A stretch of 64,000 bases of DNA from Pseudacidovorax intermedius (GTDB lineage Bacteria; Pseudomonadota; Gammaproteobacteria; Burkholderiales; Burkholderiaceae_C): positions 1-64,000 of the forward strand of contig NZ_LDSL01000052.1 of NCBI RefSeq assembly GCF_001476815.1. Reading direction: 5' to 3'. Position numbers and translations under genes: made by a program. Under the pieces are notes generated by a model that searched no databases, was not told where the DNA came from, and was given only the letters and a program-made list of their open reading frames with translations. The number at the start of each line of letters is the position of its first letter. The first letter of the stretch is position 1. This document shows, piece by piece, positions 45,271 through 55,994 of the stretch.

Positions 45271-45452
45271 CGCGGCAGTGTAGGCGCCGGGCCGCGGCCG
45301 GGCCGGCCGGCACCCGTCTTGTCCCTGCGGCGCGGCCGCCGGGCGGCGCAGGCGGCCATCGCAAAAAAACGTGAACGTCCCGGCCGAGGGGCATGGAATT
45401 TGCGGCATGCTCTCGCCCCCCGCCTGCCGCACATTCCCACAGTCCCCGCCCC

Positions 45453-46712
45453 ATGACGACCAGCCTCGGCTTCCTGATCGCCGCCCGCCGTTGCGAGATC
45501 GACGAGCTCGACCAGCTCGCCCGCACCAGCGAACTGGTCGGCACCATCGGCCGGCTGGTGCATGCGCTGCAGCGCGAGCGGGGCCTGACCAACGTCTTCC
45601 TGGGCTCGGGCGGCCAGCGCTTCGCCGCCGAACGCACCGCACAGGCCGCCGAGAGCGGCCGCGAAGAGGCCCGGGTGCGCGCCGCCCTCGACCCGCTGCT
45701 GGGCGATTCGCGCCGGCTGGCCGGCGGCGCGCGGCTCTTTCCGCGCGTCGCCTACGTGCTGCAGGGCCTGGACGCCCTGCCCGCCCTGCGCACGCGCATC
45801 GAGGCCCTGGCCGTCGGCCCCGACCTGGCGACCGCTGCCTTCGTGAAGCTGATCGCCGGCCTGCTGGCCGTGGTCTTCGAGGCCGCCGACGGCGCCACCG
45901 ATCCCGACATCTCGCGCTGGCTGGTGGCCATGTTCAATTTCATGCAGGGCAAGGAATTCGCCGGCCAGGAGCGCGCCTTCGGCGCCGCCGCCTTCCTGCG
46001 CGGCGGCAACGACGACGCCCAGCGCCAGCAGTGGCTGCACCTGATCGAATCGCAGGAGCGTTGCTTCGGCCTGTTCTGCGAGTTCAGCGACGAGTCCCTG
46101 CGCAGCCAGTGGCAGGCCAGCCAGGCGCCGGCCCAGCTGGCCGAACTGGAGCGGCTGCGCCGCATCGGCTGCACCTCGCCGGCCGGCACGGTGCTGGACG
46201 CGAACCTGGGCCCGCAGTGGTTCGAGGGCTGCACCCGGCGCATCGACGCCATGCAGGCCATCGAAGACGGCCTGGCGCGCGAGCTGCGCGCCCTGTGCGG
46301 CCGCAAGATCGAGCAGGCCCGCGCCGAGCTGCAGCGCTACGAGGCGCTGCAGGCCCAGGCCGTGACGCCGGGCGACTTCTTCGCCGAGCCCGCCGCCGAC
46401 GCGGCCGAGGCACCGGGCACCGGCTACGGCCGCAACCTGGAGCGCTCGGTGCTGCAGATGGTGCAGGAGCAGTCGCGCCGCCTGCAGGCCATGAGCGACG
46501 AGTTGCAGACGGTGCGCGCCTCGCTCAACGAGCGCAAGGTGGTCGAGCGCGCCAAGGGCCTGCTGATGGCCCATCGCAAGCTCAGCGAGGAAGAGGCGCA
46601 CAAGATGCTGCGCCAGACCGCCATGAACCAGAACCGCCGCCTGGTGGACGTGGCCGAGTCGGTGCTGGCCATGGCCGACTTCCTGCCGCTGGGCGGCAAC
46701 GCCCCGCGCTGA
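45453..46712 (+). CDS. nasR: NasR-like nitrate-sensing NIT-ANTAR antiterminator
   Basis: RNA-binding regulator of 419 aa. An N-terminal NIT (nitrate-sensing) helical domain includes [20 protein letters not shown], and a C-terminal ANTAR domain (about 345-415) reads [20 protein letters not shown] then [20 protein letters not shown]. In Klebsiella NasR binds nitrate and then leader RNA of nasF, preventing termination. The downstream leader here has matching hairpins and a terminator. ATG at 45453 chosen by where homology begins; an ATG 20 codons earlier follows GAGGG too closely. Confidence 0.92.
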
Positions 46713-46758: not shown

Positions 46759-46774
46759 TGCTGCTTTTGGTGCA
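46759..46774 (+). promoter_or_regulatory. Possible second NtrC half-site
   Basis: TTGGTGCA here matches the right half of the NtrC consensus exactly; the left half (TGC) is one base out of register. Its centre is 33 bases, about three helical turns, from the better site at 46791-46807. Tandem sites spaced this way occur upstream of glnA in enterobacteria. Weak on its own. Confidence 0.35.
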
Positions 46775-46790
46775 CAGCAGCAATGCGCAG

Positions 46791-46807
46791 TGCACGTCCA
46801 TGGCGCA
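46791..46807 (+). promoter_or_regulatory. Candidate NtrC enhancer site
   Basis: TGCAC-N7-GCGCA matches the NtrC consensus TGCACC-N5-GGTGCA with few changes. It lies about 110-130 bases upstream of the sigma-54 promoter's -24 element, the usual distance for an enhancer. This makes nitrogen-limitation activation likely. Confidence 0.6.
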
Positions 46808-46907
46808 TACGGGACGCGCGGACACCGCTGCGGCAGTGGGCCCAGCGCGCGGCTTCCGGCTGTTTCCCCTCTGACAGATCACATCCGGCCGCCCCTCGCG
46901 CTCTCCC

Positions 46908-46922
46908 TGGCACACCGCTTGC
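46908..46922 (+). promoter_or_regulatory. Sigma-54 promoter of the nas operon
   Basis: TGGCAC-N5-TTGC (46908-46913 and 46919-46922), an exact match to the -24/-12 consensus. Transcription should start near 46934, giving a leader of about 182 bases before nasF. K. oxytoca nasF is likewise sigma-54/NtrC-dependent. Confidence 0.85.
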
Positions 46923-46933
46923 GTACTCCTGCG

Positions 46934-46993
46934 CACAGACCGGAAACGGTCGTCCGGCAGGCGGCGCCCAAAGGCGGGCACGGCAGGCCGGAC
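46934..46993 (+). promoter_or_regulatory. ANTAR-type leader hairpins
   Basis: Two hairpins follow the predicted start. The first (46938-46951) is GACCG/CGGTC with a GAAA tetraloop. The second (46952-46993) has an outer stem GTCCGGC/GCCGGAC and an inner stem GCCC/GGGC closing a six-base loop AAAGGC (46970-46975), which has the A1 and G4 expected of ANTAR-recognised loops. Only the second fits the consensus fully; the first does not. Confidence 0.65.
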
Positions 46994-47000
46994 TCAGGAC

Positions 47001-47080
47001 AAAGGCGTCCTCACCCGCTGGCCCCATGGCATGCACCGCATGCGATGGGGCCGGCGCGGCGAGGACGCCTTTTTTGTTTT
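47001..47080 (+). terminator. Long intrinsic terminator in the nas leader
   Basis: AAAGGCGTCCTC (47001-47012) pairs with GAGGACGCCTTT (47061-47072); inside it GGCCCCAT/ATGGGGCC (47020-47027 with 47045-47052) and GCATGC/GCATGC extend the structure. T-rich sequence follows (47070-47080). It stands 36 bases before the nasF start, so read-through is required for expression: the target of NasR antitermination. Confidence 0.9.
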
Positions 47081-47115
47081 TCATTTCCCTGCCATTCCTG
47101 CCCTGGAGTCCGCCC

Positions 47116-48363
47116 ATGACCGACGCCCACCGCCCCGCCCCGCTGAGCCGCCGCCGCGTGCTGCAGGCCGCCGCTGCCAGCGCCCTCGCCATCGACCCCG
47201 CCCTGCGCGCCTGCGTCTGGGCCCAGGGCTCGGACAAGCCCGAGAAGGAGGAGGTCAAGATCGGCTTCATCCCGCTGACCGACTGCGCCAGCGTGGTCAT
47301 GGCCTCGGTGCTGGGCATCGACAAGAAGTACGGCGTGAAGATCGTCCCCAGCAAGGAAGCCAGCTGGGCCGGCGTGCGCGACAAGCTGGTCAACGGCGAG
47401 CTGGACTTCGCCCACGTGCTCTACGGCCTGGTGTACGGCGTGCACCTGGGCATCGGCGGCCCCAAGAAGGACATGGCCGTGCTCATGACCCTCAACAACA
47501 ACGGCCAGGCCATCACGCTGTCGAAGAAGCTGGCCGACAAGGGTGCGGTGGACGGCGCCTCGCTGGCCAAGCTGATGGCCGCCGAGAAGCGCGAATACAC
47601 CTTCGCCCAGACCTTCCCCACCGGCACGCACGCCATGTGGCTCTACTACTGGCTGGCGGCCAACGGCATCAACCCGATGAAGGACGCCAAGTCCATCGTG
47701 GTGCCGCCGCCGCAGATGGTGGCCAACATGCGCGTGGGCAACATGGACGGCTTCTGCGTCGGCGAGCCCTGGGGCCACCGCGCCATCATGGACGGCATCG
47801 GCATCACGGCCGTGACCACGCAGGACATCTGGAAGGACCATCCGGAAAAGGTGCTGGGCACTTCGGCCGACTTCGTCAAGAAGTACCCCAACACCGCCCG
47901 CGCCGTGACGGCCGCCATCCTGGAGGCCGGCAAGTGGATCGACGGCGGCCTCTCGAACAAGAACAAGATGGCCGAGACCATCGCCGAGAAGAGCTACGTC
48001 AACACCAGCGTGGACGCCATCAACCAGCGCATCCTGGGCCGCTACCAGAACGGCCTGGGCAAGACCTGGGACGACCCGAACTACATGAAGTTCTACAACG
48101 ACGGCGCGGTGAACTTCCCCTACCTGTCGGACGGCATGTGGTTCCTCACCCAGCACAAGCGCTGGGGCCTGCTGAAGGAGCATCCGGACTACCTGAAGGT
48201 GGCCACCGAGATCAACCGCATCGACATCTACAAGCAGGCCGCCGCCGCCACCAAGACGCCCGTGCCGGCCAGCCCGATGCGCAGCAGCAAGCTCATCGAC
48301 GGCGTGGTGTGGGACGGCAAGGAGCCGGCCAAGTACGCCGATTCGTTCAAGGTCCGCGCCTGA
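47116..48363 (+). CDS. nasF: Nitrate ABC transporter substrate-binding protein
   Basis: Periplasmic nitrate/nitrite-binding protein of 415 aa (NrtA/NasF family). It begins with a twin-arginine signal SRRRVLQAAAAS; the mature start includes VKIGFIPLTDCASVVMASVLGI, the family's hallmark. Other landmarks are FAQTFPTGTHAMWLYYWLAA and VGEPWGHRAIMDGIGI. Nitrate is captured and passed to the permease next door. ATG at 47116 follows GGAG, after the leader terminator; the frame runs in from upstream but through the leader. Confidence 0.92.
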   Translation: MTDAHRPAPLSRRRVLQAAAASALAIDPALRACVWAQGSDKPEKEEVKIGFIPLTDCASVVMASVLGIDKKYGVKIVPSKEASWAGVRDKLVNGELDFAHVLYGLVYGVHLGIGGPKKDMAVLMTLNNNGQAITLSKKLADKGAVDGASLAKLMAAEKREYTFAQTFPTGTHAMWLYYWLAANGINPMKDAKSIVVPPPQMVANMRVGNMDGFCVGEPWGHRAIMDGIGITAVTTQDIWKDHPEKVLGTSADFVKKYPNTARAVTAAILEAGKWIDGGLSNKNKMAETIAEKSYVNTSVDAINQRILGRYQNGLGKTWDDPNYMKFYNDGAVNFPYLSDGMWFLTQHKRWGLLKEHPDYLKVATEINRIDIYKQAAAATKTPVPASPMRSSKLIDGVVWDGKEPAKYADSFKVRA

Positions 48364-48395: not shown

Positions 48396-49319
48396 ATGGT
48401 TGCCGCCGTCTTCCATCTTCCGCGCGAGGCCGACAGCGCGGCCCCGACTGCGCCCGTGCATGCGCACGCCAAAGCGCCGGCCGCCGCCGCATCCGCCGCG
48501 CCCACCAGGCCGGTCAAGGCCGCGCGCGCCCCGCGCGACTTCAGCGGCCTGTGGCTGCGCATCGTCCCGCCGCTGCTGGGTTTCGGCCTGCTGCTGCTGG
48601 TGTGGGAGCTGGTGGCCGCGCGCAGCGGCGGCAGCTTCCCGGGCCCGGCCGAGACCTGGACGCAGGCCGTCACCGTCTTCGCCGATCCGTTCTACAGCAA
48701 CGGCCCCAACGACCAGGGCGTGGGCTGGAACGTGCTGGCCTCGCTGCAGCGCGTGGCGGTCGGCTTCGGCCTGGCGGCACTGGTGGGCATTCCGGCCGGC
48801 TTCGCCGTCGGCCGCTCGGTGTTCCTGGCGCGCATGTTCAACCCGCTGATCAGCCTGCTGCGCCCGGTGTCGCCGCTGGCCTGGCTGCCCATCGGCCTGC
48901 TGGTATTCAAGGGCGCCAACCCGGCCGCCATCTGGACCATCTTCATCTGCTCGATCTGGCCGATGGTCATCAACACCGCCGTGGGCGTGCAGCGCGTGCC
49001 GCAGGACTACATGAACGTGGCCCGCGTGCTGGACCTGTCGGAATGGAAGATCCTCACCCGCATCCTCTTCCCCGCCGTGCTGCCCTACATGCTCACCGGC
49101 GTGCGCCTGGCCGTCGGCACCGCCTGGCTGGTGATCGTGGCCGCCGAGATGCTGACCGGCGGTGTCGGCATCGGCTTCTGGGTGTGGGACGAGTGGAACA
49201 ACCTGAACGTCAAGAACATCATCATCGCCATCTTCGTGATCGGCATCGTGGGCCTGCTGCTGGAAATGGCCCTGGTCAAGCTCGCCACCGCATTCACCTT
49301 CGAAGAGGTCAAGTCGTGA
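48396..49319 (+). CDS. nasE: Nitrate ABC transporter permease
   Basis: Inner-membrane permease of 307 aa (NrtB/NasE family, BPD_transp_1). After an Ala/Pro-rich cytoplasmic N-terminus of about 50 residues the helices begin (LRIVPPLLGFGLLLLVWELV). The cytoplasmic loop for ATPase contact is GVQRVPQDYMNVARVLDLSE, and GVGIGFWVWDEWNNLNVKNI is typical of nitrate/bicarbonate permeases. Stop overlaps the next start (GTGA). The 32-base gap from nasF holds AGGAG. Confidence 0.92.
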   Translation: MVAAVFHLPREADSAAPTAPVHAHAKAPAAAASAAPTRPVKAARAPRDFSGLWLRIVPPLLGFGLLLLVWELVAARSGGSFPGPAETWTQAVTVFADPFYSNGPNDQGVGWNVLASLQRVAVGFGLAALVGIPAGFAVGRSVFLARMFNPLISLLRPVSPLAWLPIGLLVFKGANPAAIWTIFICSIWPMVINTAVGVQRVPQDYMNVARVLDLSEWKILTRILFPAVLPYMLTGVRLAVGTAWLVIVAAEMLTGGVGIGFWVWDEWNNLNVKNIIIAIFVIGIVGLLLEMALVKLATAFTFEEVKS

Positions 49320-50146
49320 ACACCGCCGTTTCCACCTCCGCCGCCGACGCCAAGTTCATCCAGATCCAGGGCGTCGAACAGGCCTTCAAGACGCCCAAGG
49401 GCCGCTTCGTCGCGCTGCAGGGCATCGACCTGACCGTGGCCAAGGGCGAGTTCGTGGCGCTGATCGGCCACTCCGGCTGCGGCAAGAGCACGCTGCTGAA
49501 CCTGATCGCCGGCCTGACCCGGCCCACGCAGGGCGTGCTGCTGTGCGCCAACAAGGAAATCGCCGGCCCCGGCCCCGAGCGTGCGGTGGTGTTCCAGAAC
49601 CATTCGCTGCTGCCCTGGCTGACCTGCTTCGAGAACATCCACCTGGGCGTGGAGCGCGTCTTCGGCGGCGCCGAATCCAAGTCGCAGTTGCGCCAGCGCA
49701 CCACCGACGCGCTGGCACTGGTCGGCCTCACGCCTGCGACAAGCAAGCGCCCCGGCGAGATCTCCGGCGGCATGAAGCAGCGCGTGGGCATCGCCCGCGC
49801 CCTGGCCATGGAACCCAAGGTGCTGCTGATGGACGAGCCCTTCGGCGCCCTCGACGCCCTGACCCGCGCCAAGCTGCAGGACGAGTTGCTGGCCATCGTG
49901 CAGAAGACGCAGAGCACGGTCGTCATGGTCACGCATGACGTGGACGAGGCGGTGCTGCTGTCCGACAAGATCGTGATGATGACCAACGGCCCGGCCGCCA
50001 CCATCGGCGAGGTGCTGTCGGTCGACCTGCCCCGCCCGCGCAACCGCGTCGAGCTGGCCGAGGACCGCGACTACGTGCACTACCGCAAGGCGGTGATCGA
50101 CTTCCTCTACACCCGCCAGGGGCACGTGGAAAAGCAGGCAGCCTGA
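49316..50146 (+). CDS. nasD: Nitrate ABC transporter ATP-binding protein
   Basis: ATPase of 276 aa (NrtC/D-type). Walker A GHSGCGKST (near 51-59), signature ISGGMKQRVGIARAL, Walker B VLLMDEPFGALD and MVTHDVDEA. It lacks the extra substrate-binding domain of cyanobacterial NrtC. GTG start at 49316 chosen since it overlaps the permease stop and gives the right N-terminus. Confidence 0.92.
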   Translation: MNTAVSTSAADAKFIQIQGVEQAFKTPKGRFVALQGIDLTVAKGEFVALIGHSGCGKSTLLNLIAGLTRPTQGVLLCANKEIAGPGPERAVVFQNHSLLPWLTCFENIHLGVERVFGGAESKSQLRQRTTDALALVGLTPATSKRPGEISGGMKQRVGIARALAMEPKVLLMDEPFGALDALTRAKLQDELLAIVQKTQSTVVMVTHDVDEAVLLSDKIVMMTNGPAATIGEVLSVDLPRPRNRVELAEDRDYVHYRKAVIDFLYTRQGHVEKQAA

Positions 50147-50184: not shown

Positions 50185-51399
50185 ATGCGGCAGAAATTGG
50201 TGGTGATCGGCAATGGCATGGCCGGCATGCGCACCGTGCAGGAACTGCTGGCCATCGCGCCCGGGCTCTACGACATCACCGTCTTCGGCGCCGAGCCGCA
50301 TCCGCACTACAACCGCATCCTGCTGTCGCCGGTACTGGCCGGCGAGCAGGACCTGCAGGACATCGTGCTGAACGACTGGGACTGGTACCGCGAGCAGGGC
50401 ATCACCCTGCATGCCGGCCGCACCGTCGTGCAGGTGGACCGCGCCCGGCGCGTGGTGCGGGCCGACGACGGCACCGAGGCGCCCTACGACCGCCTGCTGC
50501 TGGCCACCGGCTCGCGGCCGGTCATGCTGCCAGTGCCCGGCGCAGACCTGCAGGGCGTGGTCGCCCACCGTGACATCGCCGACACCGAGACCATGATCGA
50601 GGCCGCCCGCAGCCATCGCCACGCGGTGGTGATCGGCGGCGGCGTGCTGGGCCTGGAGGCCGCCAGCGGCCTGGCGCGGCGCGGCATGGCGGTGACGGTG
50701 GTGCACCGCAACGACTGGCTGATGGAGCGCCAACTGGACGCCGAGGCCGCCGCGCTGCTGCAGCAGTCGCTGGAAGTCCAGGGGCTGCAGTTCCGCCTGG
50801 GCGCGCAGACCGAAGCGCTGCGGGACGACGGCCAGGGCCGGGTGTGCGCCGTGCGCCTGGCCGACGGCAGCGAACTGCCGGCGGATTTGGTGGTGATGGC
50901 CCTCGGCATCCGCCCGAACATAGCCCTGGCGCAGCAGATGCGCCTGCACTGCGAGCGCGGCATCGTGGTCAGCGACACGCTGCAGACGGTGACCGATGGC
51001 CGCATCTACGCCGTGGGCGAATGCGCCCAGCACCGCGGCGTGGCCTACGGCCTGGTGGCGCCGCTGTTCGAGCAGGGCCGCGTGGCCGCCAACCACCTGG
51101 CGCAGCTGGGCATCGGCCGCTACGTGGGCAGCACCGTGTCGGCCAAGCTCAAGGTGACCGGCATCGAGCTGCTGTCGGCCGGCGACTTCATGGGCGGCGA
51201 CGGGACCGAGCAACTGGTGCTGCGCGATCCGCAAAGCGGCGTCTACCGCAAGCTGGTGCTCAAGGACGAGCGGCTGGTCGGCGCCTGCCTGTACGGCGAC
51301 GCCGAGGGCGGCAGCTGGTACCTGGACCTGCTGCGCGAAGGCCGCAGCGTGGCCGGGCTGCGCGAGCAGCTGATCTTCGGGGAGCCCGCCCATGGCTGA
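50185..51399 (+). CDS. nasC: FAD/NAD(P)H oxidoreductase, NasC / NirB N-terminal type
   Basis: Flavoprotein of 404 aa with two Rossmann motifs: VVIGNGMAGMRTVQELL for FAD at the N-terminus and VVIGGGVLGLEAASGLARRG for NAD(P)H near 147. A second FAD motif ending YAVGECAQHRG is present. It resembles the diaphorase part of nitrite reductase NirB and the small subunit NasC that feeds NADH electrons to NasA. Its stop overlaps nasA by eight bases, consistent with that partnership. Confidence 0.87.
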   Translation: MRQKLVVIGNGMAGMRTVQELLAIAPGLYDITVFGAEPHPHYNRILLSPVLAGEQDLQDIVLNDWDWYREQGITLHAGRTVVQVDRARRVVRADDGTEAPYDRLLLATGSRPVMLPVPGADLQGVVAHRDIADTETMIEAARSHRHAVVIGGGVLGLEAASGLARRGMAVTVVHRNDWLMERQLDAEAAALLQQSLEVQGLQFRLGAQTEALRDDGQGRVCAVRLADGSELPADLVVMALGIRPNIALAQQMRLHCERGIVVSDTLQTVTDGRIYAVGECAQHRGVAYGLVAPLFEQGRVAANHLAQLGIGRYVGSTVSAKLKVTGIELLSAGDFMGGDGTEQLVLRDPQSGVYRKLVLKDERLVGACLYGDAEGGSWYLDLLREGRSVAGLREQLIFGEPAHG

Positions 51400-54229
51400 A
51401 GAAACGCGATCCACCTGCCCCTACTGCGGCGTCGGCTGCGGGGTGCTCATCCAGACCGAGGGCGCGCGCATCACCGGCGTGCGGGGCGACCCGGCGCATC
51501 CCGCCAACTTCGGCCGCCTGTGCACGAAGGGCAGCACGCTGCACCTGACGGCTGCGCCCGCCATCGCCGGCCAGGCGCGGCTGCTGGCACCGGCGCGGCG
51601 GCCCGCCCGCGGCGCCGAGACGCAGGCCATCGGCTGGGACGAGGCCCTGGACGAGGCCGCCGAACGCTTCGCCCGCGTGATCGCCGAGGACGGCCCCGAC
51701 GCCGTGGGCTTCTACCTGTCGGGCCAGCTGCTCACCGAGGACTACTACGTCTTCAACAAGCTGGCCAAGGGCCTCGTCGGCACCAACAACCTGGACACCA
51801 ATTCGCGCCTGTGCATGAGCAGCGCCGTGGCCGGCTACAAGAAGACGCTCGGCGCCGACGCCCCGCCCGCCTGCTACGACGATGTGAAGGACGCCGGCTG
51901 CCTGTTCATCGCCGGCAGCAATGCGGCCTGGGCCCATCCCATCTTCTTCCGCCGCATCGAGGACGCGAAGCGCGCCAACCCGGCCATGAAGATCGTGGTG
52001 GCCGACCCGCGCCGCACCGACACCGCCGAGTTCGCCGACCTGCACCTGCCGCTGCAGCCGGGCAGCGACGTGATGCTCTTCCACGCCATGCTGCACGTGA
52101 TGCTGCGCGAGGGCTGGGCCGACGAGGCCTTCATCGCCGCCCACACCCAGGGCTTCGAGGCCCTGCGCGACACGGTGCGGGACTGCACGCCCGAGCGCGC
52201 CGGCGAGGTCTGCGGCCTGCCCGTGGCCGACATCGTGCAGGCCGCGCGGCTCTTCGCCACCGGCGGCAGCGGCGATGCGGCGCGGCGCGCGCCGACGCTC
52301 AGCCTCTACTGCATGGGGCTGAACCAGTCCTCGCACGGTACCGACAAGAACGCCGCGCTGATCGGCCTGCACCTGGCCACCGGCCAGATCGGCCGGCCGG
52401 GCGCGGGGCCCTTCTCGCTGACCGGCCAGCCCAATGCCATGGGCGGGCGCGAGGTGGGTGGCCTGTCGAACCTGCTGCCGGCCCACCGGGACATGGCCAA
52501 TGCCGCGCACCGGGCCGAGGTCGCCGCCTTCTGGGGCGTGCCCGCGATCCCGGCGACACCGGGCCTGAGTGCCATCGAGATGTTCCGCGCCGCGGCCGAG
52601 GGCCGGGTGCGGGCGCTGTGGATCGCCTGCACCAATCCCGCCCAGTCCATGCCCGACCAGGCGCTGGTGCGCCGCGCGCTGGAACGCTGCGAATTCGTCG
52701 TGCTGCAGGAGGCCTACGCCACCACCGCCACCGCCGCCTTCGCCGACCTGCTGCTGCCCGCCACCACCTGGGGCGAGAAGGACGGCACCGTCACCAACAG
52801 CGAACGGCGCATCTCGCGCGTGCGGCCCGCCGTGCCGGCGCCGGGCGAGGCGCGGCACGACTGGGCCATCGCGGCCGACTTCGGCCAGCGGCTGCAGGCA
52901 CGCCTGGCGCTGCGCGGCGTGGCCCCGCCGCGGCCGGAACTGCTGCTCTACCACTCGCCCGAGCAGGTCTGGAACGAGCACCGCGCCACCACCGCCGGCC
53001 GCGACCTGGACATCACGGGCCTCTCCTACGCCCTGCTGGACCAGCTCGGCCCGCAGCAGTGGCCGATGCCCGCCGGCCAGCCGGCCGGCACGCCGCGCCT
53101 GTACCAGGACGGCGTGTTCGCCACGCCCGACGGCCGCGCCCGCTTCAGCGCCGAGCCCTGGCGGCCGCTGGCCGAAACGCGCGATGCCGACTGGCCCTAT
53201 GCCCTGAACACCGGCCGCCTGCGCGACCAGTGGCACGGCATGAGCCGCACCGGCACGCTGGGCCGGCTGTTCGGCCACGTCGCCGAGCCGGCCCTGCAGA
53301 TGGCGCCGCATGACATGGCCCGCGAAGGCCTGGCCGCCGGCGACCTGGTCGACGTCGCCTCGCGCCGCGGCAGCGCGGTGCTGCCGGTGCAGCCCGATGC
53401 CACGCTGGCGCCGGCGCAGACCTTCGTTGCCATGCACTGGGGCGAGGAATTCCTGGGTGGCCGCGATGCGCGCGGCCAGGCCCTGGCCGGCGTCAATGCG
53501 CTGACCACGCCGGCCTTCTGCCCCACCTCCAAGCAGCCGGAACTCAAGCACGCCGCCGTGCGCATCCGCCGGCTCGCGCTGCCCTGGACGCTGCTGGGCA
53601 TCGCCTGGCTGCCGGCCGAGCGCGCCCTGGCCGCGCGCCAGGCCCTGCGTGCCGCGGCCGGCGGGCTGCGCTTCGTCAGCTGCGTGCCCTTCGGCGACGA
53701 AGGCGCGGCGGGCGGCGAGGTCGGCGTGCTGCTGCGTGCCGCCGCCGAGACGCCGCCGCCGGCTGCGCTGGTCGACCGCATCGAGGCCCTGCTCGGCCTG
53801 GACGACGGCCAGGCCCTGCGCTATGCCGACCCGGCCCGCGGCCACCGCCGTGCGGTGCGGCTGCGGCGCGACGGCGAGCTGGCCCACGTGCGCGCCGTGC
53901 TGCTGGCCGGCGACACCCGCGCCGAAGGCTGGCTCAAGACCCTGCTGCAGGACCGCCTGCCGGCGCAGGACTTCGGCCGCCGCCTGCTCTCCTACCAATC
54001 TACGCCGCCGGTGGCGGTGGTGTCGCGCGGCAAGACCGTGTGCAACTGCTTCGGCGTGCCCGAGCAGGACATCGCCGGGCACCTGGCCGCCTGCGAGGGC
54101 AGCGAGGCCGAGCGCCTCGCCGGCCTGCAGCAGGCGCTGCGCTGCGGCACCAACTGCGGCTCCTGCGTGCCCGAACTGCGGCGCATGGTGCGGGAGACAC
54201 CCGTGCGCCTGCACCGCCGGGCGGCATAA
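51392..54229 (+). CDS. nasA: Assimilatory nitrate reductase catalytic subunit
   Basis: Cytoplasmic molybdoenzyme of 945 aa reducing nitrate to nitrite. The N-terminal [4Fe-4S] cluster uses Cys9, Cys12, Cys16 and Cys44. The Mo-bis-MGD domain follows, with Mo-ligand Cys141 in NSRLCMSSAVAGYK and the typical HPIFFRRIEDAK. A C-terminal BFD-like [2Fe-2S] domain has CNCFGV (Cys884 and 886) and CGTNCGSC (918-925), which accepts electrons from the flavoprotein NasC. Cytoplasmic, with no signal peptide. Confidence 0.95.
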   Translation: MAEETRSTCPYCGVGCGVLIQTEGARITGVRGDPAHPANFGRLCTKGSTLHLTAAPAIAGQARLLAPARRPARGAETQAIGWDEALDEAAERFARVIAEDGPDAVGFYLSGQLLTEDYYVFNKLAKGLVGTNNLDTNSRLCMSSAVAGYKKTLGADAPPACYDDVKDAGCLFIAGSNAAWAHPIFFRRIEDAKRANPAMKIVVADPRRTDTAEFADLHLPLQPGSDVMLFHAMLHVMLREGWADEAFIAAHTQGFEALRDTVRDCTPERAGEVCGLPVADIVQAARLFATGGSGDAARRAPTLSLYCMGLNQSSHGTDKNAALIGLHLATGQIGRPGAGPFSLTGQPNAMGGREVGGLSNLLPAHRDMANAAHRAEVAAFWGVPAIPATPGLSAIEMFRAAAEGRVRALWIACTNPAQSMPDQALVRRALERCEFVVLQEAYATTATAAFADLLLPATTWGEKDGTVTNSERRISRVRPAVPAPGEARHDWAIAADFGQRLQARLALRGVAPPRPELLLYHSPEQVWNEHRATTAGRDLDITGLSYALLDQLGPQQWPMPAGQPAGTPRLYQDGVFATPDGRARFSAEPWRPLAETRDADWPYALNTGRLRDQWHGMSRTGTLGRLFGHVAEPALQMAPHDMAREGLAAGDLVDVASRRGSAVLPVQPDATLAPAQTFVAMHWGEEFLGGRDARGQALAGVNALTTPAFCPTSKQPELKHAAVRIRRLALPWTLLGIAWLPAERALAARQALRAAAGGLRFVSCVPFGDEGAAGGEVGVLLRAAAETPPPAALVDRIEALLGLDDGQALRYADPARGHRRAVRLRRDGELAHVRAVLLAGDTRAEGWLKTLLQDRLPAQDFGRRLLSYQSTPPVAVVSRGKTVCNCFGVPEQDIAGHLAACEGSEAERLAGLQQALRCGTNCGSCVPELRRMVRETPVRLHRRAA

Positions 54230-54276: not shown

Positions 54277-55185
54277 ATGGGAAGCATTGCGCATTACATC
54301 AAGGACATCGGCCGCGGCGCCCGCGGCGCGAAGCCCCTCGCCCGCGAACAGGCGGCGGACCTCTTCGGCCAGGTGCTGGACGGCAGCGTCACCGACCTGG
54401 AGATCGGCGCCTTCTGCCTGGCCATGCGCGTCAAGGGCGAGACCACGCAGGAGATGGCCGGTTTTCTCGACGCCACCCATGCGCGGCTGGCCTGCGTCGG
54501 CAGCAGCGCCGGCCCGGTGATCGTGCTGCCCAGCTACAACGGCGCGCGCCGGCTGCCGGTGCTCACCCCACTGCTGGCCCTGCTGCTGGCGCGCGAAGGC
54601 CTGCCGGTGCTGGTGCACGGCAGCCGCACCGAAAGCAGCCGCGTCACCGCCACCGAAGTCCTGGCCGAGCTCGGCCACGCCGAGGCCACCGCGCTGGCGC
54701 CACTCGGCGCCGGCGAGATCGCCGTGGTCGACACGGGCCTGCTGCACCCCGGCCTCAAGCGCCTGCTGGAGGTGCGCCGCGTGGTGGGCCTGCGCAACGC
54801 GGGCCACAGCGTGGTCAAGCTGATGCAGCCGGTGGCCGGACCGGCCGTGGTCGTCGGCAGCTACACCCATCCGGCCTTCGGCACGGTGATGACCGAGCTC
54901 TTCGAGCTGCTGGGCATGACGGCCATGCTGTCGCGCGGCCTGGAGGGCGAGGTGGTGGTGGACCCGCGCCGCACCCTGCAGATCGAAGGCTTCGTGCGCG
55001 GCCAGCGGCAGGCGCTGCAGACGCAGCAGCCGGGCACGCTGGCCGAGATCCCGGGCCTGCCCGAAGACCTCGGCGCCGCCGTCACCGCCGACTACACCCG
55101 CCGCGTGCTGGCGGGCGACCTCCCCCTTCCCGACGCGATCGCCGCCCAGGTCGCGCACATCCGCCAACTGGCTGCACACGCATGA
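54277..55185 (+). CDS. ybiB: YbiB/TrpD2-like DNA-binding protein (glycosyltransferase family 3 fold)
   Basis: Protein of 302 aa of the anthranilate phosphoribosyltransferase-like fold. It has the helical N-terminal domain (LAREQAADLFGQVLDGSVTD) and central block MRVKGETTQEMAGFLDATHA, but the YbiB/TrpD2 group lacks the substrate residues for tryptophan synthesis and binds nucleic acid instead, reportedly under LexA control in E. coli. Its place inside a nitrate operon, with its stop overlapping cobA as ATGA, is unexplained by known function. Confidence 0.82.
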   Translation: MGSIAHYIKDIGRGARGAKPLAREQAADLFGQVLDGSVTDLEIGAFCLAMRVKGETTQEMAGFLDATHARLACVGSSAGPVIVLPSYNGARRLPVLTPLLALLLAREGLPVLVHGSRTESSRVTATEVLAELGHAEATALAPLGAGEIAVVDTGLLHPGLKRLLEVRRVVGLRNAGHSVVKLMQPVAGPAVVVGSYTHPAFGTVMTELFELLGMTAMLSRGLEGEVVVDPRRTLQIEGFVRGQRQALQTQQPGTLAEIPGLPEDLGAAVTADYTRRVLAGDLPLPDAIAAQVAHIRQLAAHA

Positions 55186-55994
55186 ACACGCCCACGACCT
55201 CTTCCCGCCCGCTCGGCCGCTGCACCCTGGTCGGCGCCGGGCCAGGCGATCCGGAACTGCTCACGCTCAAGGCCGTGAAGGCCGTCCAGGCCGCCACCGT
55301 GCTGCTGGTGGACGACCTGGTCAACGACGAGATCCTGCAATGGGCCAGGCCCGACGCGCGCATCGTGCACGTGGGCAAGCGCGGCGGCTGCAAGAGCACG
55401 CCGCAGGCCTTCATCGAGAAGCTGATGATCGCGGCCGTGCAGGAGGGCGAGACGGTTGTGCGCCTCAAGGGCGGCGACCCCTTCGTCTTCGGCCGCGGCG
55501 GCGAGGAGGTCGAGCACCTGCGCGAGGCCGGCATCCCCTGCGAGGTGGTCAACGGCATCACCGCCGGCCTGGCCGCCGTGACGGCCCTGGGCGTGCCCCT
55601 GACCCACCGCGACCATGCGGCGGGCGTGGTGTTCGTCACCGGCCATGCCAAGACCGGCACGGCCGACGGCGCCCGCCATGACAGCACCGACTGGGCCGCC
55701 CTGGCCGCCACGGCCCGCGACGCGCGGCTGACGCTGGTCATCTACATGGGCGTGGCCGGCGCGAGCCACATCCAGCAGCAGTTGCTGGCTGGCGGCCTGC
55801 CGGCGGGCACGCCGGTGGCGGTGGTGCAGCATGCCAGCCTGCCGCACCAGCGGCAGCTCGTCGCCACGCTGGGCACCCTGGTCGCCGACTTGGCGGCGAG
55901 CGGGCTGGGCAGCCCGTCCATCATCGTGGTGGGGGATGTGCTGCGCGGCATGGCAGCGGCGGGCGCACCGGCGTCCTCGCGCTTCGGGACCTGA
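55182..55994 (+). CDS. cobA: Uroporphyrinogen-III C-methyltransferase
   Basis: SAM-dependent methyltransferase of 270 aa making precorrin-2, first step to siroheme. The glycine-rich VGAGPGDPELLTLKAVKA (near 17-34), VVRLKGGDPFVFGRGGEE and the central VVNGITAGLAAVTALGVPLT are diagnostic. It is the single-domain form, lacking the oxidase/ferrochelatase CysG domains. Siroheme is the cofactor of nitrite (and sulfite) reductases, so its presence in the nas cluster makes sense. Confidence 0.93.
   Translation: MNTPTTSSRPLGRCTLVGAGPGDPELLTLKAVKAVQAATVLLVDDLVNDEILQWARPDARIVHVGKRGGCKSTPQAFIEKLMIAAVQEGETVVRLKGGDPFVFGRGGEEVEHLREAGIPCEVVNGITAGLAAVTALGVPLTHRDHAAGVVFVTGHAKTGTADGARHDSTDWAALAATARDARLTLVIYMGVAGASHIQQQLLAGGLPAGTPVAVVQHASLPHQRQLVATLGTLVADLAASGLGSPSIIVVGDVLRGMAAAGAPASSRFGT

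Follow-up and report, generated by a model that had tools for sequence, protein, structure and literature searches.

A predicted sigma-54 promoter and NasR-responsive attenuator before a nitrate assimilation operon of Pseudacidovorax intermedius, with related leaders beside nasT-like genes

The window, the whole 64,000-nucleotide stretch of Pseudacidovorax intermedius DNA analyzed here, carries on its forward strand nasR, a leader, an nrtA-like gene, genes for a nitrate ABC permease and ATPase, a NirB-like oxidoreductase, a molybdoenzyme and YbiB, and a uroporphyrinogen-III methyltransferase gene, in that order (Table 1). The tsaD gene is divergent and lies upstream of nasR. As a first-pass annotation of this DNA had proposed, nasR is located directly upstream of the control region and encodes a NIT-ANTAR protein, in which Pfam finds both domains. 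The nearest named matches to NasR are from Pseudacidovorax (91–92% identity), followed by Xenophilus and Variovorax, and NasR is the sole ANTAR match in the whole genome (E 0.01). The genome also encodes NtrC (679.6 bits versus a family cut-off of 558.6).

Table 1. Genes and control elements in and around the nasR-nrtA region, in window coordinates
Feature	Coordinates	Strand	Evidence
sigma-54-like -24/-12 element GGGCATGGAATTTGC before nasR	45389..45403	+	8/10 core letters; 64 nt before the nasR start codon
nasR, NIT nitrate/nitrite sensor domain joined to ANTAR RNA-binding domain	45453..46712	+	Pfam NIT 6.2e-56, ANTAR 7.5e-21; structure 4AKK, E 2.4e-52
NtrC-like half site TTGGTGC	46767..46773	+	TTGGTGC enriched upstream of relatives' promoters
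NtrC-like imperfect dyad TGCACGTCCATGGCGCA	46791..46807	+	10/12 consensus letters; starts 117 nt upstream of the -24 element
sigma-54 promoter core TGGCAC-N5-TTGC	46908..46922	+	motif match and conservation
Hairpin P0, GACCG[GAAA]CGGTC, GNRA tetraloop	46938..46951	+	folds; not an ANTAR site here
Hairpin P1 with outer stem; ANTAR core GCCC[AAAGGC]GGGC at 46966-46979	46952..46993	+	A1 and G4 in the hexaloop
Hairpin P2, AGGAC[AAAGGC]GTCCT, second ANTAR hairpin	46996..47011	+	core GGAC[AAAGGC]GTCC at 46997-47010
Intrinsic terminator	47001..47081	+	stem 47001-47072, U (T) tract 47070-47081
nrtA/nasF-like nitrate-binding protein gene	47116..48363	+	Pfam NMT1_2 7.3e-103
Nitrate ABC permease	48396..49319	+	TIGR01183, above cut-off
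Nitrate ABC ATPase	49316..50146	+	TIGR01184, above cut-off
NirB N-terminal-like FAD oxidoreductase	50185..51399	+	matches the first half of TIGR02374, below cut-off
Assimilatory nitrate reductase-like molybdoenzyme (nasA/nasC)	51392..54229	+	best NCBIfam matches Fdh-alpha, NasA and NasC, all below cut-offs
Uroporphyrinogen-III methyltransferase (siroheme)	55182..55994	+	TIGR01469, above cut-off

To compare the control region across relatives, we used the nasR-nrtA intergenic stretches obtained for 118 of the first 134 loci. The 16 loci left out had weak or partial NasR matches (L019-L030) or lacked an nrtA match (L075, L081, L088 and L119). Removal of identical cores gave 95 distinct leaders, including that of the window. 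We divided these by the loop of hairpin P2 into clade I (AAAGGC, 60 leaders, Pseudacidovorax, Xenophilus and Variovorax among them) and clade II (AACGGC, 34 leaders), with one further leader carrying AATGGC.

The exact sigma-54 promoter claimed by the first-pass annotation is the only exact core in the 64 kb. Since an exact core was also present in 29 of 100 shuffles, a single match is weak by itself, and it is conservation that carries the promoter assignment. All 95 distinct leaders score at least 8 of 10 core letters (10/10 in 59, 9/10 in 34 and 8/10 in two), with TGGCAC present in 92 and TTGC in 60; in clade II leaders, the -12 box is mostly CTGC-like. Promoter spacing predicts that the transcript starts near 46934. 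A promoter and terminator scanner found neither feature in the window; its promoter model is that of sigma-70, and we think that it missed the terminator because the long stem falls outside its rules.

An NtrC-like site had likewise been proposed upstream of the promoter, where the window contains both a half site and an imperfect dyad, the latter scored against the NtrC consensus. Across up to 170 nt of sequence preceding the promoter, 48 of the 95 leaders contain TTGGTGC (0.96 expected) and 63 contain the dyad GCAC-N7-GTGC (0.78 expected). These strongly enriched motifs, most of them 100–130 nt from the -24 box, fit putative NtrC sites, and the window's own dyad fails the stricter GCAC-N7-GTGC pattern. 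A loose NtrC pattern allowing three mismatches was uninformative across the window (292 matches versus 440 expected). L070, L076, L100 and L030 carry an inverted repeat, GCTAYC...GATAGC or a close variant, in the stretch that separates the NtrC-like sites from the promoter; this repeat was not seen in the window.

The minimum free energy fold places two hairpins, 46938–46951 and 46952–46993, right after the predicted start. The first-pass annotation had reported two hairpins immediately after the start, and both are present, but the first (P0) is not an ANTAR hairpin, and the second ANTAR hairpin sits in the 5′ arm of the terminator. By folding and loop sequence, the predicted ANTAR pair is P1 (46966–46979) with P2 (46997–47010), not 46938–46993. 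P1 and P2 share the hexaloop AAAGGC and a C-G closing pair, as expected of ANTAR hexaloops. The same loop rule, a C-G closing pair with A at position 1 and G at position 4 (A1/G4), emerged from SELEX with Klebsiella oxytoca NasR (PMC7496416). We also considered P0 and P1 as the ANTAR pair and rejected this arrangement: the P0 loop of the window is GAAA and, of the 58 P0 hairpins found in the 60 clade I leaders, whose loops are variable, four have an A1/G4 loop (a fifth leader, L128, had one, but another loop was chosen in the count).

Hairpin pairs with A1/G4 loops, defined by stems of at least four pairs and loops 15–60 nt apart, were found in 88 of the 95 leaders, compared with 0.05% of Markov-shuffled leaders (0.15% for shuffles of the window's own leader) and none of 95 stretches upstream of the promoters. 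The seven leaders that fail this rule (L018, L039, L044, L045, L052, L054 and L090) all contain P2, and the P2 core GAC[AANGGC]GTC is present in 95 of 95.

A long intrinsic terminator, noted in the first pass as lying just before the nrtA/nasF-like gene, is present, and its 5′ arm is shared with P2. Because the P2 loop and 3′ arm (47001–47010) double as the terminator 5′ arm, P2 and the terminator are mutually exclusive. This agrees with the description by Ramesh et al. (2012; PMC3369931), in which a second mini-hairpin is formed by the recognition sequence at the terminator's 5′ base. In prefix folds of the growing RNA, P0, P1 and P2 form up to 47050, and at 47066 the terminator replaces P2. 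The free leader has a predicted energy of -106.5 kcal/mol (z-score -10.75), versus -90.1 kcal/mol with P2 held. Position 3 of the P2 loop and its terminator partner co-vary and remain paired in 94 of 95 leaders (A.T in 60, C.G in 33, T.G in one; broken in L049), a change that is mostly one difference between the two clades and so represents few events. The terminator base is paired in 100% and 97.8% of the clade I and clade II alignments, respectively, and is nearly invariant.

A comparison across relatives for compensatory changes, suggested in the first-pass annotation, supports P1. In the clade I alignment A1 (37 of 39 representatives, two truncated ones excluded), 93.5% of cells in P0, P1 and P2 are paired, and the covariation score is 0.201 versus 0.134 in shuffles, with 0 of 500 as high. 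Both sides have changed in two of five P0 pairs and five of ten P1 pairs, and P2 is invariant; the total of doubly changed pairs was matched by 25 of 500 shuffles. In the clade II alignment A2 (27 of 29 representatives), P1, its extension and P2 score 0.351 versus 0.130 (0 of 500 shuffles as high), with double changes in four of six P1 pairs and none in P2, a number of doubly changed pairs that 181 of 500 shuffles matched. Since P2 lacks double changes in either clade, covariation cannot test its stem. The shuffles ignore relatedness; slid controls, which allow for kinship, gave clearly lower covariation scores of at most 0.104 and 0.142.

A covariance search was another check suggested in the first pass, and models built here from the leaders of relatives find the ANTAR element in the window. 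Model R2, made from 32 clade I leaders with none from genomes placed in the window's genus, matches 46955–47010 with 42.1 bits (E 2.9e-7, next 0.46). Model R1, made from 37 leaders without the Pseudacidovorax-type L001-L006 and with five same-genus rows retained (L007, L008, L009, L012 and L015), matches with 47.3 bits (E 1.4e-9) in the window. When R1 was used to search the whole genome, the element was the only match (E 1.2e-7, next 0.19).

Transcription of Klebsiella nasF starts from a sigma-54/NtrC promoter. The nasF leader and NasR have been studied by Chai and Stewart, Ramesh et al. (2012; PMC3369931) and Goodson et al. (2020; PMC7496416), and the latter two describe a NIT-ANTAR regulator, two A1/G4 hexaloop hairpins with C-G closing pairs, of which the second overlaps the base of the terminator, and a nitrate assimilation operon behind. 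The control region in the window is of this design and thus already known in kind: conservation, covariation, the mutually exclusive P2 and terminator, the single ANTAR protein and the adjacent nasR all bear out the first-pass view that it mirrors the nasF leader. Unlike the Klebsiella leader, it has an extra 5′ hairpin, P0, before P1. The betaproteobacterial setting, remarked on in the first pass, is not new in kind: Burkholderia was already among the ANTAR RNA matches of Ramesh et al. (2012; PMC3369931), with nitrate/nitrite transporters among the genes behind matches. The NasS-NasT leaders of Paracoccus, Pseudomonas and Azotobacter also combine an ANTAR protein, a leader RNA and nitrate (PMC3795266), but NasT gets its nitrate signal from NasS, whereas the sensor in the window is NasR. 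The EutV/EutW leaders of Enterococcus share the two-hairpin ANTAR antiterminator with P2 overlapping the terminator, but have two-component input and respond to ethanolamine; the excerpts of PMC3369931 and PMC7496416 mention no sigma-54 promoter for them.

How might the two elements act together? When nitrogen is scarce, NtrC bound approximately 110–140 nt upstream of the -24 box would open the promoter, and RNA would start near 46934, a position that we infer from motifs and conservation. The leader would then fold into P0 and P1 and, for a short time, P2. If nitrate is absent, the arm GAGGACGCC would, as it emerges, capture the P2 loop and 3′ arm, and the resulting long hairpin would end transcription at the U tract. 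In the presence of nitrate or nitrite, NasR, by analogy with the Klebsiella protein and motif, would bind the A1/G4 hexaloops of P1 and P2 and hold P2, so that the terminator base could not close and nrtA and the genes behind it would be transcribed. Both nitrogen scarcity and nitrate or nitrite would be required. Such a double lock, nitrogen status AND nitrate, was the logic proposed in the first-pass annotation, and the sigma-54 and NtrC-like motifs, the overlap of ANTAR hairpin and terminator, and the adjacent nasR all support it, with the function deduced from these elements. We put the probability that a sigma-54/NtrC-activated promoter and a NasR-controlled attenuator precede nrtA at roughly 0.88; the transcription start, the binding of NtrC and NasR, termination and read-through are predicted steps in this scheme.

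Other explanations of the hairpin at 47001–47081 must also be weighed. It may be merely the terminator of nasR, with the hairpins before it incidental. The nasR gene ends at 46712, on the same strand and 289 nt upstream of the terminator stem, and the terminator would also block read-through from nasR. However, the promoter sits between nasR and the terminator, P1 and P2 with A1/G4 loops are far more frequent in leaders than in shuffles, and the promoter-leader unit is also found behind nasT-like genes, all of which make this explanation very unlikely. That the element controls translation instead of termination is scarcely credible. Although ANTAR elements are found near ribosome sites elsewhere, according to Ramesh et al. 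(PMC3369931), the Shine-Dalgarno-like CTGGAG here, at 47103–47108, is past the U tract and outside P1, P2 and the terminator.

It is also possible, if improbable, that the terminated leader (about 46934–47081) functions mainly as a trans-acting small RNA like Pseudomonas P11, with attenuation secondary. P0, with its stable tetraloop, could protect such an RNA, and one genome in our set, G494, contains a P11 member of the same build as the window leader. In this genome, RF00625 (P11) matches upstream of nirB with 126.2 bits (L167:7441-7580), and RF03032 (narK RNA) scores 55.1 bits in the gap separating a nasT-like gene from a gene for an MFS transporter (L167:3747-3890). A sigma-54 core, A1/G4 hairpins and a terminator are found in both members, which form the leaders of nirB and of the MFS transporter gene, respectively. 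The P11 hairpins are CTC[AACGTG]GAG, CCCG[ACAGAG]CGGG and GGAC[AAAGGC]GTCC. P11 itself, filed as an sRNA gene, is known from P. aeruginosa through work on avoidance behavior in C. elegans and is said to regulate the PA14 nitrogen assimilation operon nirB/nirD/nasC (PMC12080996). Weighing against a mainly trans-acting role, the conserved letters of the leader are those of the cis switch, and the window's matches to P11 are far under the cut-off (12.4 and 15.9 versus 70 bits). The match to narK RNA is also below threshold (22.3 versus 43.2 bits), and Rfam at gathering thresholds gave no match in the window. We took microRNA and other sub-threshold Rfam matches over the long hairpin as chance.

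In a class-wide search at E 1e-4, RF00625 matched 7 of 185 genomes and RF03032 matched 4 of 185, with 0 of 14 controls. Sub-threshold matches to these families in relatives include leaders of the window's class; at E up to 10, the two families also match 9 and 13, respectively, of the 14 control genomes. These findings suggest that leaders of the ANTAR class are included in two Rfam families, of which one is known as an sRNA from worm-behavior work. The abstract of a 2024 study by Marogi reportedly describes partner switching that involves nitrate, sensor proteins and P11, and the link between P11 and ANTAR may therefore well be known. Among the papers listed in our literature search, none dealt with NasR leaders in Comamonadaceae or described P11 as an ANTAR leader.

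Returning to the attenuator reading, we asked how closely the NasR protein itself resembles that of K. oxytoca. Residue numbering at an offset of 27 relative to structure 4AKK fits 11 of the 12 positions tried, the exception being R49. Seven of 11 positions implicated in RNA contact or auto-inhibition are identical (R236, R193, Q194, R340, E359, R366 and N373), and the changes are D201 to E, E191 to A, Q204 to E and W362 to H, the last three of which affect three of the five NIT-ANTAR pairs invoked by the auto-inhibition model. In K. oxytoca NasR, R340 is essential for RNA binding and W362A reduces this binding severely (PMC7496416). Since W362A is so damaging there, the histidine at position 362 counts against a simple transfer to the protein studied here.

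The window nasR is preceded by a conserved sigma-54-like element of its own. Of 94 loci, 90 have an element scoring 8–9 of 10 at most 300 nt from nasR, versus 8.1% of mononucleotide shuffles, and the count is again 90 of 94 within 110 nt. The consensus is about (C/G)GGCAYGGATRTTGC. In 55 loci retained after thinning, the unscored spacer letters are conserved (up to 1.7 bits) and the flanks are not. NtrC-like sites are not enriched near the element (TTGGTGC or its complement in 2 of 94 loci with 4.9 expected, the dyad in 1 of 94 with 2.5 expected). Before nasT-like genes, an element scoring 8–9 occurs in 17 of 51 versus 4.5% of shuffles, and 11 of these 17 genes belong to a subgroup nearer Pseudomonas-type NasT. 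If the nasR element is real, nitrogen limitation would raise both the sensor and its target.

The nasT-like genes came to light in a wider search, in which the promoter and P2 pattern matched 161 of 299 genomes of the family; the reversed control also matches, so some of these are chance matches. Among the matches listed, 60 loci were picked by eye, with GC required at the -12 box, of which 51 were from genomes without a NasR match at 1e-60 and nine from genomes with one. For the 51, the fetched stretch contains an upstream nasT-like gene in 44 cases, and none was found in the other seven. Adding five earlier loci (L027 lacked the pattern) gave a comparison set of 65 leaders: a nasT-like gene is upstream of 51, with none found for 14, and downstream are nrtA in 58, a nirB-like gene in six and nothing recognized in one. 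Pfam found an ANTAR domain in all seven nasT-like regulators examined and a receiver domain in two, and the name NasT thus rests on similarity.

On a tree of nrtA, built from tblastn segments for 112 of 119 rows (six under 60% identity and one too short were dropped), the sensor label needs seven changes, at least three of which are forced by branches with SH-aLRT of 95 or more, as judged by a quick method. A promoter-leader unit moved beside different sensors would look the same as sensor replacement. Three A1/G4 hairpins are present in 18 of the 65 leaders, and an A1/G4 loop in P0 is found in 14 of 24 nasT-linked versus 4 of 36 nasR-linked long leaders (Fisher p 1.5e-4), although the tree holds only two independent pairs; of the 119 leaders considered, 45 fell outside the length class and 14 lacked P1 by the rule used.

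We tentatively propose, as a possibility that we hold to be less probable than its negation, that the promoter-leader-nrtA unit is a sensor-neutral ANTAR socket, paired in turn several times with NasR (NIT-ANTAR) and NasT (receiver-like-ANTAR), whose sensing halves are unrelated, with the P2/terminator switch unchanged. The ancestral leader may have had three A1/G4 hairpins, of which the window P0 would be the third, with a loop that became a GNRA tetraloop along the NasR lineage. Where nasT-type relatives lack a close second NasS homologue, the role of NasS may fall to the binding protein of the transporter, which in most cases carries a twin-arginine-like signal and would therefore fold in the cytoplasm. 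What goes beyond the routine here was suggested purely by comparison: a fixed RNA switch beside which the sensors have apparently been exchanged, a sigma-54-like element before nasR, and a third hairpin. Together, the 95 distinct nasR-linked and 51 nasT-linked leaders form a comparative set with natural sensor exchanges on one RNA target, which allows tests of whether NasR and NasT recognize a common RNA and of the role of the third hairpin.

Several further observations concern these loci. Three ANTAR-type hairpins in a row were seen in L170, L023, L028, L191-L195, L198, L200, L201, L203-L205, L210, L212, L218, L222 and L242. The window NrtA, encoded beside NasR, has the twin-arginine-like motif SRRRVLQ at its N terminus and is 52% identical to the NasS-like protein of G494. 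Seven nasT-type genomes (G018, G021, G024, G028, G042, G049 and G057) each encode just one protein with 51–53% identity to the Pseudomonas-type NasS of G494, namely the binding protein whose gene follows the leader; second homologues are absent or weak (34% in G028, 33% in G057, a fragment in G021). A twin-arginine-like N terminus is present in six of seven nasT-type binding proteins read, the exception being that of G016 (56%). At L041, L042, L045, L048, L049 and L131, a different binding protein, only 33–38% identical to that of the window, is encoded behind the NasR leader. Finally, two nasR genomes have a second promoter-leader approximately 7 kb downstream, before a nirB-like gene (L236, G255:C43:21794; L237, G182:C11:467523).
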